Shown in pieces: positions 44,112 through 47,085 of a stretch of DNA of 64,000 bases. Position 1 is the first letter of the stretch, and the number at the start of each line of letters is the position of its first letter. This DNA is from Sphingobacteriales bacterium (GTDB lineage: Bacteria > Bacteroidota > Bacteroidia > Sphingobacteriales > Sphingobacteriaceae), in assembly GCA_026390835.1 (NCBI GenBank), contig JAPLFD010000007.1, forward strand, positions 1-64,000, read 5' to 3'. Both the position numbers and the translations under genes were made by a program. Under the pieces are notes generated by a model. It did no database searches. It saw nothing but the letters and a program-made list of their open reading frames with translations, and was not told the DNA's origin.

Positions 44112-45524
44112 ATGAGTAGCTTTCTCACCCTAATGCGCCAAGAATTGGGCAATATTCCTACTGCACAGCAGGAAGAAGCCTTTGTATTGTTGGAGCGATT
44201 TATTCATGCTCCCGAAGAAAAAGCCTGTTTGGTGCTAAAAGGCTATGCCGGTACGGGTAAAACCACACTCATTAGTGCCTTAGTGAATGTATTACCCAAA
44301 TTTAATTTTAAATCGGTGTTGTTGGCACCTACGGGCAGGGCTGCCAAAGTAATGAGCAGCTATTCTTCTAAAAAAGCCAGCACCATTCACAGGCGCATTT
44401 ACCGTAAAAAATCTGCTATTAGCCCCGATATGCAGTTTAGCTTGGGGCAAAATACCTTAGCCAATACCATTTTTGTAGTCGATGAAGCTTCCATGATTTC
44501 CGATGATTCTACCGATTATAGCCGATCTGGTTTGCTCGAAGATTTAATCCGCTTTGTGTACGATACACATCCCTGCAAACTCATTTTAGTGGGCGATACC
44601 GCTCAGCTTCCGCCCGTAGGTTCTACCGAAAGCCCTGCTTTAGATGCAAATTATTTAAAAGATAAATACGATTTAAGCGTCTATCAAACCGAACTCACCG
44701 AAGTGGTGCGCCAAGAAAAAAGCTCGGGTATTTTGTACCATGCCACCCAATTGCGTGAACACATTAGGCAAGAAAAAGCTCAAGTGCCCGTACTTTCTGC
44801 CAAAGGCTATTCCGATTTGTTTCACATGACCGGCGAACGCCTCATTGAAGGCCTCTCGTATGCTTACGATAAATTTGGAATAGAAAATACCCTGGTGATT
44901 TGCCGCTCCAATAAGGGGGCTAACAATTACAACCAAAACATCCGCAACCGTATTTTGTATAGAGAAGAAGAACTCAGCGGAGGCGATTACATCATGGTGG
45001 TGCGCAACAACTATTTCTGGCTAGCCGACGAAGAGAAAAAAGGCAATTTTATTGCCAATGGCGATATTGCCAAAATTCGGAAAGTAAAATCCATTTCCGA
45101 GCAATTTGGCTTCCGCTTTGCCGATGTGGTCTTAGAGTTTTTAGACTATCCGGATGAAGAACCGCTTAGCTGTAAAGTGATGCTGGATACGCTGTATGCC
45201 GAAACGCCAAATCTTTCCTACACCGATAATAAACGCCTTTACGAAGCCGTATCTGCAGATTATGCGCACATTACCAGCAAAGCGCAGCGCCTGAAAGCCA
45301 TTAAAGAAGACCCCTATTTTAATGCGCTGCAAGTAAAATTTGCCTATGCCGTAACTTGCCATAAAGCCCAAGGTGGACAATGGGATGCCGTGTTTATAGA
45401 CCAAGGCTACCTCACCGAAGAACTCATAAATACCGAGTTTTTACGCTGGCTCTATACCGCTATTACCCGCAGTACCACCGAATTGTTTTTGGTGAATTTT
45501 GCGAAGCAGTTTACGGGGGAGTGA
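44112..45524 (+). CDS. RecD-like superfamily 1 ATP-dependent DNA helicase
   Basis: LKGYAGTGKTTLISAL; APTGRAAKVMS; VDEASMISD; VGDTAQLPPVGS; TCHKAQGGQWDAVFID. Confidence 0.94.
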   Translation: MSSFLTLMRQELGNIPTAQQEEAFVLLERFIHAPEEKACLVLKGYAGTGKTTLISALVNVLPKFNFKSVLLAPTGRAAKVMSSYSSKKASTIHRRIYRKKSAISPDMQFSLGQNTLANTIFVVDEASMISDDSTDYSRSGLLEDLIRFVYDTHPCKLILVGDTAQLPPVGSTESPALDANYLKDKYDLSVYQTELTEVVRQEKSSGILYHATQLREHIRQEKAQVPVLSAKGYSDLFHMTGERLIEGLSYAYDKFGIENTLVICRSNKGANNYNQNIRNRILYREEELSGGDYIMVVRNNYFWLADEEKKGNFIANGDIAKIRKVKSISEQFGFRFADVVLEFLDYPDEEPLSCKVMLDTLYAETPNLSYTDNKRLYEAVSADYAHITSKAQRLKAIKEDPYFNALQVKFAYAVTCHKAQGGQWDAVFIDQGYLTEELINTEFLRWLYTAITRSTTELFLVNFAKQFTGE

Positions 45525-45529
45525 GGAGA

Positions 45530-45647
45530 TTAACGTTTTCAGGGCTTTGCGAAAAAGCGGATTTAGAAGCACAAATGTTTATTAGAATTCCGAATGTTCA
45601 AATTTAGCACTCAACCTGCTTTTTCGCAAAACCCTTGTTAGTGGCAG
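45530..45647 (-). repeat. attC-like imperfect palindrome downstream of the esterase gene
   Basis: On the minus strand: TGCCACTAACAAGGGTTTTGCGAAAAAGCAGG ... CCGCTTTTTCGCAAAGCCCTGAAAACGTTAA; near-complementary 19-20 bp arms flanking about 55 nt. Confidence 0.5.
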
Positions 45648-45655
45648 TTAATTTT

Positions 45656-46507
45656 TTATTGTCGTTTAAATCGTTTAAAAAAGGTCCAAATTACTTCACA
45701 AGCATTCATATCTTGACTTGTCTTTCCAATAATGGCTTCATTCAAATATTGATAACCTTGTGGCCAAGTATGTCCACCATTTAAAATTACATAACTTACT
45801 ACTTCACTTCCGTTTGTAGAATTTGAATATACTCTTTGTTTTATTGTTGTGCCATCGTTTGCAATGTCTGGCAAGTCAGTTATTGTTGGTGTAGTATTAC
45901 AACCATTAATGGTTATCCATTTGTCAATTGCTTGAAAATGCGATATCGCAGTTCCTTTGCAATTCGGTGCAATGGTAGTTGCTTCAATTGATGCAGCATC
46001 CACTGCAATAGCTGCAATACGATTACTTAATTCACAACCCAAACGAGAAGACATGAATCCGCCATTAGATATTCCTGTAGCATAAATTTTAGTGCCGTCT
46101 ACCGAATAATTGTTAATCATATAATCACACATTTGATTGAAAAAACTAACATCATTAATTCCTAATTGATTTGGGGTTGTTGGTCGTCCATCATTCCAAT
46201 TATTTTGTATCCCTGCAGGATAAACCAAAACCACTTTGTCTCTATCAGCAATAGTTTTGAAATTAGCAATGTTTATCATTCCCTCGGGCGTTCCACTTCC
46301 ACCATGAATGGCAAATATCAAAGGCATTTTACCTGCATTATTGTAACCTGTTGGAAGATACACTATAAAACTTCTTGCATTACCGTCAACAGTTAGGTTT
46401 ACTGTTTTTTGCTCACTTGGTTTGTCAGCAATCGTTGTTGAATTGTCACCTTTGTTACACGAAATAAGTGTAATCAGAATTGTTATAAGTAAAATTACTT
46501 GTCTCAT
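45656..46507 (-). CDS. PHB depolymerase/feruloyl-esterase-like lipoprotein
   Basis: ITLISCNKGD lipobox; IFAIHGGSGTPEGM; GISNGGFMSSRLGCEL; GGHTWPQG. Confidence 0.88.
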   Translation of the reverse strand: MRQVILLITILITLISCNKGDNSTTIADKPSEQKTVNLTVDGNARSFIVYLPTGYNNAGKMPLIFAIHGGSGTPEGMINIANFKTIADRDKVVLVYPAGIQNNWNDGRPTTPNQLGINDVSFFNQMCDYMINNYSVDGTKIYATGISNGGFMSSRLGCELSNRIAAIAVDAASIEATTIAPNCKGTAISHFQAIDKWITINGCNTTPTITDLPDIANDGTTIKQRVYSNSTNGSEVVSYVILNGGHTWPQGYQYLNEAIIGKTSQDMNACEVIWTFFKRFKRQ

Positions 46508-46558
46508 TTTTATTTTAATTTATCTCGTTTAGACGTTTTACGTGTCGTTTGGTTTAAT

Positions 46559-46664
46559 TGCCACTAACTAGTCTATAACCTCAACAAAAACCCATGGAGT
46601 ATACAATTCAAATATAGCCGTATTACCTCAACACGTCAATCACCAAACAAAAACGTTGTAGACT
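46559..46664 (-). repeat. Degenerate boundary repeat upstream of the esterase gene
   Basis: TTGCCACTAAC (46559..46569), an inverted copy of the GTTAGTGGCA box at 45637..45646, plus AGTCTATAAC (46571..46580)/GTTGTAGACT (46655..46664) inverted repeat. Confidence 0.4.
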
Positions 46665-46685
46665 CAAACTGTCAAAACAATACGC

Positions 46686-46937
46686 CGCATACGCTCAATA
46701 ACATGGTGCATACATACTTAAGCACGCCGCATACGCACTTCACCACGGCGCAGCAGCTCACCTCCACGGCGCAGCCGCACCTTACCATGGCGCAGTCGCA
46801 CTTTACCATGGCGCAGTCGCAATCTACCACGGCGCAGCCGCACTTTACCACGCCGCAGTCGCACTTTACCACGGCGCAGTCGCACCTTACCATGGCGCAG
46901 CCGCACCTCACCACGGCGCAGTCGTGCCATACCCTAG
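46686..46937. repeat. Tandem array of about 12 degenerate 21-bp units
   Basis: Core units read CGCAG(C/T)CGCAC(C/T)T(C/T)ACCA(C/T)GG, e.g. 46770..46790, 46791..46811, 46854..46874. Confidence 0.92.
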
Positions 46938-46939
46938 AT

Positions 46940-46962
46940 CCTTCGACAAGCTCAGGATGACA
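46940..46962 (+). repeat. REP-like half-palindrome CCTTCGACAAGCTCAGGATGACA
   Basis: Same family as repeats at 61941..61995 and 62032..62086 in this window. Confidence 0.85.
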
Positions 46963-46983
46963 ACAAGAAAAGGAAATAGCTAG

Positions 46984-47040
46984 GGCCCGGCAGAACGGCG
47001 GGCCAGCGTAAAGGCCTGTGGGCAGAAGCATCGTTCTGCC
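46984..47040 (+). repeat. 57-bp dispersed palindromic element, copy A
   Basis: GGCCCGGCAGAACGGCGGGCCAGCGTAAAGGCCTGTGGGCAGAAGCATCGTTCTGCC; terminal GCAGAACG/CGTTCTGC inverted repeats; inverted copy at 61861..61916. Confidence 0.9.
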
Positions 47041-47085
47041 TTGAGTTTCAAAAACGGTAAATTTTAGAAAACTTACCCGTTCGAA

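Follow-up and report, generated by a model that had tools for sequence, protein, structure and literature searches.

An integrated gene cassette behind a putative orphan attI-like site, apparently part of an integron-like system of Bacteroidota

Results

Organisation of the esterase locus

The analysed stretch of 64,000 nucleotides (the window) contains, between a gene encoding a RecD/UvrD-like helicase and a DUF2911 gene, a unit with the features collected in Table 1. The protein encoded in the unit has a lipoprotein-like signal and gave weak alpha/beta-hydrolase matches, with BAAT_C above the cut-off and Esterase just under it. A homologue of this esterase was found in the genome G002, where the similarity covers only the ORF and neither the hairpin nor the flank; the G002 contig is broken where the similarity stops.

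Table 1. Features of the esterase locus, in positions of the window.
Feature	Position	Strand	Remarks
Integrated gene cassette	45534..46567	minus	1,034 bp; boxes read off the sequence; R'/R'' rule across the family
Cassette crossover points G|TT	between 46568/46567 and 45534/45533	minus	
Cassette gene, putative lipoprotein alpha/beta-hydrolase (esterase-like)	45656..46507	minus	283 aa
attC-like site	45523..45647	minus	R1 covariance model
R''-type box TGCCACTAAC	45637..45646	minus	
attC-like stem, 5' arm	45610..45635	minus	
attC-like stem, 3' arm	45541..45566	minus	
3' junction GTTAATC	45528..45534	minus	directly 3' of the RecD/UvrD-like helicase stop codon
Cassette-start (R'-type) box G|TTAGTGGCA	46559..46568	minus	inverse of the R'' box
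attI-like core GGTTATAGACTAG|TT	46566..46580	minus	comparable motif next to array-heading integrases (3' side)
Constant 5' flank (attI-like block)	46568..46676	minus	recurs at G000:C16, G003:C1:721496-721608 and G001:C54
Promoter-like TTGACG-17-TATATT, Pc-like	46611..46639	minus	consensus match; points into the cassette
21-bp tandem repeats	46708..46924	no strand	upstream of the attI-like block
Insertion relative to G003	45525..47080	no strand	closest relative compared

The preliminary description had placed an imperfect palindrome 3' of the minus-strand esterase gene, and its arms and boxes were found where it had put them. The stem arms of 26 nt are 85% complementary, and the palindrome folds better than shuffled sequences on either strand, the bottom strand that had been proposed for folding included (z -2.9 and -2.8). 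The extrahelical base ascribed to it is absent from the stem, which has a symmetric mismatch instead (T.G on the top strand, CxA on the bottom strand). The scan against Rfam matched no family, and the terminator scan made no call at the palindrome. The R1 covariance model, built from nine aligned sites of which the window site is itself one, scores this site at 110.6 bits (E 1.9e-24).

Upstream of the gene, GTTAGTGGCA is the exact inverse of TGCCACTAAC over 10 nt, as had been reported, and the two boxes lie inside an 18-nt inverted repeat (89%) with arms 902 nt apart. Exactly two copies of TGCCACTAAC are present in the 64 kb, both at the cassette, where 0.11 would be expected; at least two copies occurred in 1 of 100 shuffled sequences. 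The 5' end of the unit is G|TTAGTGGCA and its 3' end TGCCACTAAC-stem-loop-stem-G|TTAATC, so that the start is complementary to the unit's own R'' box with the crossover at G|TT. When the circular form is joined on paper, it reads TGCCACTAAC-stem-loop-stem-ACG|TTAGTGGCA, in which the two boxes pair perfectly, as in an integron cassette. The hairpin stands 3' of the gene and in its orientation, and its structure is kept by covariation. The second inverted repeat described earlier, AGTCTATAAC/GTTGTAGACT, was also confirmed; its place is the constant 5' flank and not the cassette itself.

The attI-like landing site

The cassette is preceded by a constant block of about 110 bp that comprises a promoter-like sequence and TATAGACTAG|TT; TATATTTG in the promoter-like element fits the Bacteroidota TAnnTTTG box. 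The same flank is found at a second locus of the own genome (G000) and in two related species, G003 and G001. These three occurrences represent one chromosomal locus, between MarC/GreA-like genes and an rRNA methyltransferase gene, at which three different genes stand behind the same block, and the identity of the flanks ends at the TAG before the crossover. In other Bacteroidota, the integrases that head arrays are directly followed on their 3' side by a comparable motif, and for this reason the flank is called attI-like. Within the window the score of the GGTTATAGACTAG|TT motif ranks 6 of 127,972 positions, which is good but not unique. By sequence only, a putative attI with a promoter-like sequence is located beside the first cassette, as in an integron platform.

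The preliminary description had suggested a comparison of relatives between the helicase and DUF2911 genes. In G003, whose helicase protein is 96% identical, there is no insert, and the DUF2911 gene comes almost immediately after the helicase stop codon. A terminator conserved in place in relatives, considered earlier as another explanation of the palindrome, is not found in G003, which has neither the palindrome nor the gene at this locus. No base-exact empty site for the window cassette was found, since the whole 1.5-kb insert is missing in G003. As the block recurs elsewhere and G003 lacks the insert, the window locus is a second attI-like platform, one that G003 does not have at this position. 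The cassette had been described as lone or relic; a single site is indeed present, but on the 5' side the cassette adjoins an attI-like site that includes a promoter-like sequence.

About ten tandem repeats of the CACGGCGCAGTCGCACTTTAC type lie directly upstream of the attI-like block, and the block is likewise preceded by a similar array of 21-bp repeats at G000:C16 and in G003, not in G001. At the second platform of the own genome (L107, G000:C16:5373-5512), a lipoprotein-like gene stands behind the attI-like block; the right part of its attC is common with G003, while the left arm and the gene differ. At a third site of the own genome, at the contig end of G000:C6 (L110:179-1638), TATATGCTTG precedes the cassette start G|TTATGCGT. 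The site further comprises a Crp-like gene, a gene for a small secreted protein, the end box ACGCATAAC and an attC-like hairpin whose left arm is damaged.

Distribution and covariation of the attC-like family

When 100 relatives were first searched with the cassette, palindromes were obtained at unrelated genomic positions. The unprompted consensus fold of the nine seed sites with RNAalifold gave an 18-bp stem with compensatory changes at 7 of 18 pairs. R1 sites were detected in 75 of the 100 relatives, the largest number in a single genome being 30. In a sample of 297 genomes from across Bacteroidota, 132 had sites at E up to 1e-6; the genomes compared are related and the counts among them are not independent. 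Many of the sites form same-strand arrays with a spacing of about 0.2-4 kb.

Among 60 pairs of neighbouring sites, 57 have a cassette start that is complementary to the cassette's own end box, a match being defined as at least five of six variable positions complementary, while shuffling of the partners gave a mean of 5.9 and a maximum of 16 (10,000 shuffles). In an alignment of 96 sites, fitted to the R1 model and including a few mirror matches, the stem is 93.6% paired and two-sided changes occur at 17 of 18 pairs; the covariation is 0.70 compared with 0.16 for shuffled and 0.05-0.09 for slid alignments. The hairpins have a conserved loop, GTGCTAAATT..GAACATTTGTGC. By their topology the R1 sites are integron-type cassettes, and the attC-like family is, as judged from its occurrence in the sampled genomes, phylum-wide in Bacteroidota.

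The sites could also be explained as a MITE- or REP-like dispersed palindrome, or as a terminator adjoining an unrelated gene, with which their dispersal, repetition and position 3' of genes agree. We regard this as barely credible, as it is contradicted by the complementarity of R' and R'' boxes across a whole gene, by the attI-like junctions and the genes swapped at one platform, as well as by the lack of a terminator call. The cassette reading of the preliminary description is, in turn, strongly supported by the R'/R'' test, the covariation, the swapped genes and the absence of the unit in a close relative.

Sites L195 and L125, of about 175-205 nt, are far longer than the others and have the same stem. 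At G042:C1:1936420-1945281, an array lies beside a stop-ridden integrase remnant and appears to be a decaying platform.

Hairpins without extrahelical bases

In IntI-type attC sites, one side of the folded bottom strand carries two extrahelical bases (PMC3053210), and these are docked by the I2 helix of IntI (PMC7790495, PMC3053210). Most sites here depart from this arrangement: the folded bottom strand has no bulged base in 61 of 80 sites, the count taking in the outer 16 pairs of the stem and not the pairing of R boxes and spacer. One symmetric mismatch was found in 50 of 75 sites, CxA being the commonest. The same procedure applied to three class 1 attCs that fold as expected, with the misfolded dfrA17 left out, gave two bulged bases for aadA5, two for estX and three for dfrA14. 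The R1 search of the aadA5, estX and dfrA14 class 1 integrons found no match.

Integrases of the window genus and its relatives

The absence of an integrase, noted earlier for the window, extends to the own genome (87.6% complete), in which a genome-wide search found no IntI at the cut-off, in cis or elsewhere, and only XerC and XerD. Likewise, no integrase of the array type described below was found in the genomes of the window genus searched, of which the best is 99% complete, and XerC and XerD were again the only such recombinases; therefore the platform would be a relic or served in trans. A canonical IntI above the cut-off was detected in one of the 100 relatives, G033, which carries two genuine IntI genes with the I2 insert (G033:C1:2095261 and 2766556), and no R1 site was found within about 1.5 kb of either.

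An ordinary CALIN or SALIN of the IntI type, in which a canonical I2-bearing integrase, now gone, had inserted the cassette, would account for the R''-stem-loop-stem-R' layout, which is that of integron cassettes, and draws on the true IntIs of G033. IntI is, moreover, able to insert cassettes off-target. Against this explanation stand the single relative with an IntI compared with the 75 with R1 sites, the distance of the R1 sites from both G033 IntI genes, the mostly bulge-free stems compared with the two to three bulged bases of class 1 attCs, and the array-adjacent integrases without I2, and we consider it improbable. The preliminary description had proposed a SALIN/CALIN-like type; as this attC family is mostly bulge-free and the integrases heading its arrays elsewhere lack I2, the locus would by definition probably fall outside the IntI-type SALIN/CALIN. 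A CALIN comprises two or more attC in a span of 4 kb and no integrase, and the window locus, which has one attC-like site, is none. A SALIN is a single IntI-type attC site lacking an integron integrase; with its single site and no integrase the window locus is a possible SALIN, although this site lacks the extrahelical bases of an IntI-type attC.

Integrases heading the arrays

In other genomes, tyrosine recombinases are located at the ends of the arrays. Four approaches agree that the IntI-specific I2 insert is absent from them: alignment with true IntIs, in which the insert is missing; the TIGR02249 model, which matched in two pieces with 184-207 bits (cut-off 265); alignment with the solved IntI4 structure (2a3v), where they have 20 residues and IntI4 has 63; and an AlphaFold model (pLDDT 81) without an extra helix at the I2 position, whose best matches among solved structures are XerA and IntI4. 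In the phylogenetic tree, the IntIs form one clade (100/100), and the array integrases are placed outside it, in at least three lineages and not as one clean clade. Hence they neither reach the 265 bits of TIGR02249 nor belong to the IntI clade, both of which would be expected of an IntI. With the model NF040815, a XerA-like "site-specific tyrosine recombinase/integron integrase", they score 190-232 bits (cut-off 220). In the CC-licensed PMC literature searched, neither I2-less integrases, nor NF040815 or TpnF, are described as heading attC-type arrays; an earlier description elsewhere is possible, and the NCBI name is generic.

The A4 profile, made from array integrases, scores these mostly at 340 bits or more and IntI and Xer at 200 or less. 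An array-type integrase was present in 46 of 100 genomes, and R1 sites were found in 45 of these 46 compared with 30 of the 54 genomes without it (p 3e-7); at least five R1 sites were found in 35 of 46 and 9 of 54, respectively. Among the matches listed, 21 have an integrase and an array no more than 10 kb apart; in 20 of them the direction of the array leads away from the integrase, and 10 of the 21 pairs are co-oriented and 11 divergent. For 18 of the 19 platforms, the start of the first cassette has a box that agrees with the cassette's own R'' at 9-10 of 10 positions; this start box is mostly located 35-320 nt past the integrase and often at ..TATANACNAG|TT. In a separate sample of GTDB genomes, arrays were found downstream of array-type integrases in cultured strains, e.g., Flavobacterium enshiense, F. 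aciduliphilum, Algoriphagus ornithinivorans and Winogradskyella ursingii, and the integrase loci from outside Bacteroidota in this sample had no R1 site.

The host XerC/XerD pair might instead move the cassettes, as it does for Xer-exploiting mobile elements, all the more as XerC and XerD are the sole such recombinases of the genus and a bulge-free stem resembles a double-stranded site. This explanation is made very improbable by the linkage of the arrays to another integrase family, whose members have an attI-like junction next to them.

On a plasmid of Chryseobacterium sp. SNU WT5 (L301), an array-type integrase is followed by four R1 sites, and the array contains an IS110 element and a group II intron. 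As this platform is plasmid-borne, such platforms can be mobile.

Discussion

Relation to known integrons

We interpret the locus, with a probability of roughly 0.8, as a single integrated cassette that belongs to an integron-like system of Bacteroidota and occupies an orphan attI-like site downstream of a Pc-like promoter. This reading is based on the cassette topology, the covarying hairpin family and the attI-like flank with swapped genes, all of which are apparent at the level of sequence. The locus is built like an integron, yet judged by the definitions of the IntI type it falls outside it; it is apparently an orphan attI with a cassette of an integron system whose integrases lack I2.

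The family shares with IntI-type cassettes an imperfect hairpin 3' of the gene, AAC...GTT boxes, a start complementary to the end box, the crossover G|TT and arrays of one orientation, but it differs in its stem, which mostly has no extrahelical bases and usually one symmetric mismatch, in its conserved loop and in the absence of an IntI nearby. In common with CALIN and SALIN, an attC-like site accompanies a gene without an integrase in the neighbourhood; unlike them, the window cassette stands in an attI-like block with promoter-like sequence, and relatives carry complete platforms headed by non-IntI integrases. Xer-exploiting elements of the CTXphi type likewise have a folded single-strand site without extrahelical bases and a recombinase without I2 (PMC4792948), whereas the Bacteroidota system has a dedicated integrase, an attI-like site and multi-cassette arrays.

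According to the proposed mechanism, the cassette circle would fold as a single strand on the TGCCACTAAC-stem hairpin, and a tyrosine recombinase would join it to the attI at CTAG|TT. The recombinase would be an integrase without the I2 insert, as indicated by the platforms elsewhere in the phylum, and at the window locus it would have been lost or be supplied in trans. The promoter of the attI block would then drive transcription of the cassette gene. Mechanistically, an integrase without I2 and a hairpin without extrahelical bases would form a coherent pair.

The I2 helix has been described as necessary for cassette capture and as present in no other protein (PMC7790495), and the joint origin of this helix and the attC sites has been called a chicken-egg paradox (PMC4792948). 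Hairpin-cassette arrays headed by I2-less integrases would provide a natural test of the first view, and with recombinases that lack the helix held to define integron integrases the question of integron origin would become testable. For Bacteroidetes, In0 elements had been reported earlier, and IntegronFinder 2 gave one complete integron, in Salinibacter (PMC9024848). We are inclined, with some reserve, to a broader reading in which Bacteroidota possess phylum-wide integrons run by I2-less tyrosine recombinases on hairpins without extrahelical bases, as a living alternative to or pre-IntI intermediate of the known type, with the window locus as an integrase-less outpost and tet(X3) together with TpnF as a platform fragment. 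If this is true, the cassette arrays of Bacteroidota have so far been largely uncounted.

The tpnF-tet(X3) unit

TpnF is the tyrosine recombinase encoded upstream of tet(X3) on Acinetobacter plasmids, e.g., at L299:6028-8226 of A. indicus pXG01-X3. It is 49% identical to the integrase of G030 and groups with array-heading integrases, in the tree with that of Aquiflexum (100/97). Directly 3' of tet(X3) lies GGCTACTAACAAGCAGTTTTGCAATAGTGGGGCAGAAGTGCAAAATTGAAC...GTGCTTCTATCAACTTTTGT, which corresponds to the 5' part of a family attC with the 3' side cut off (R1 19.4 bits, E 0.012). The start box of the unit does not match its end box, and the attC link is therefore only suggestive; the tpnF-tet(X3) unit may be a piece of a cassette platform from Bacteroidota, and the broader reading, if true, suggests a source of this resistance unit.
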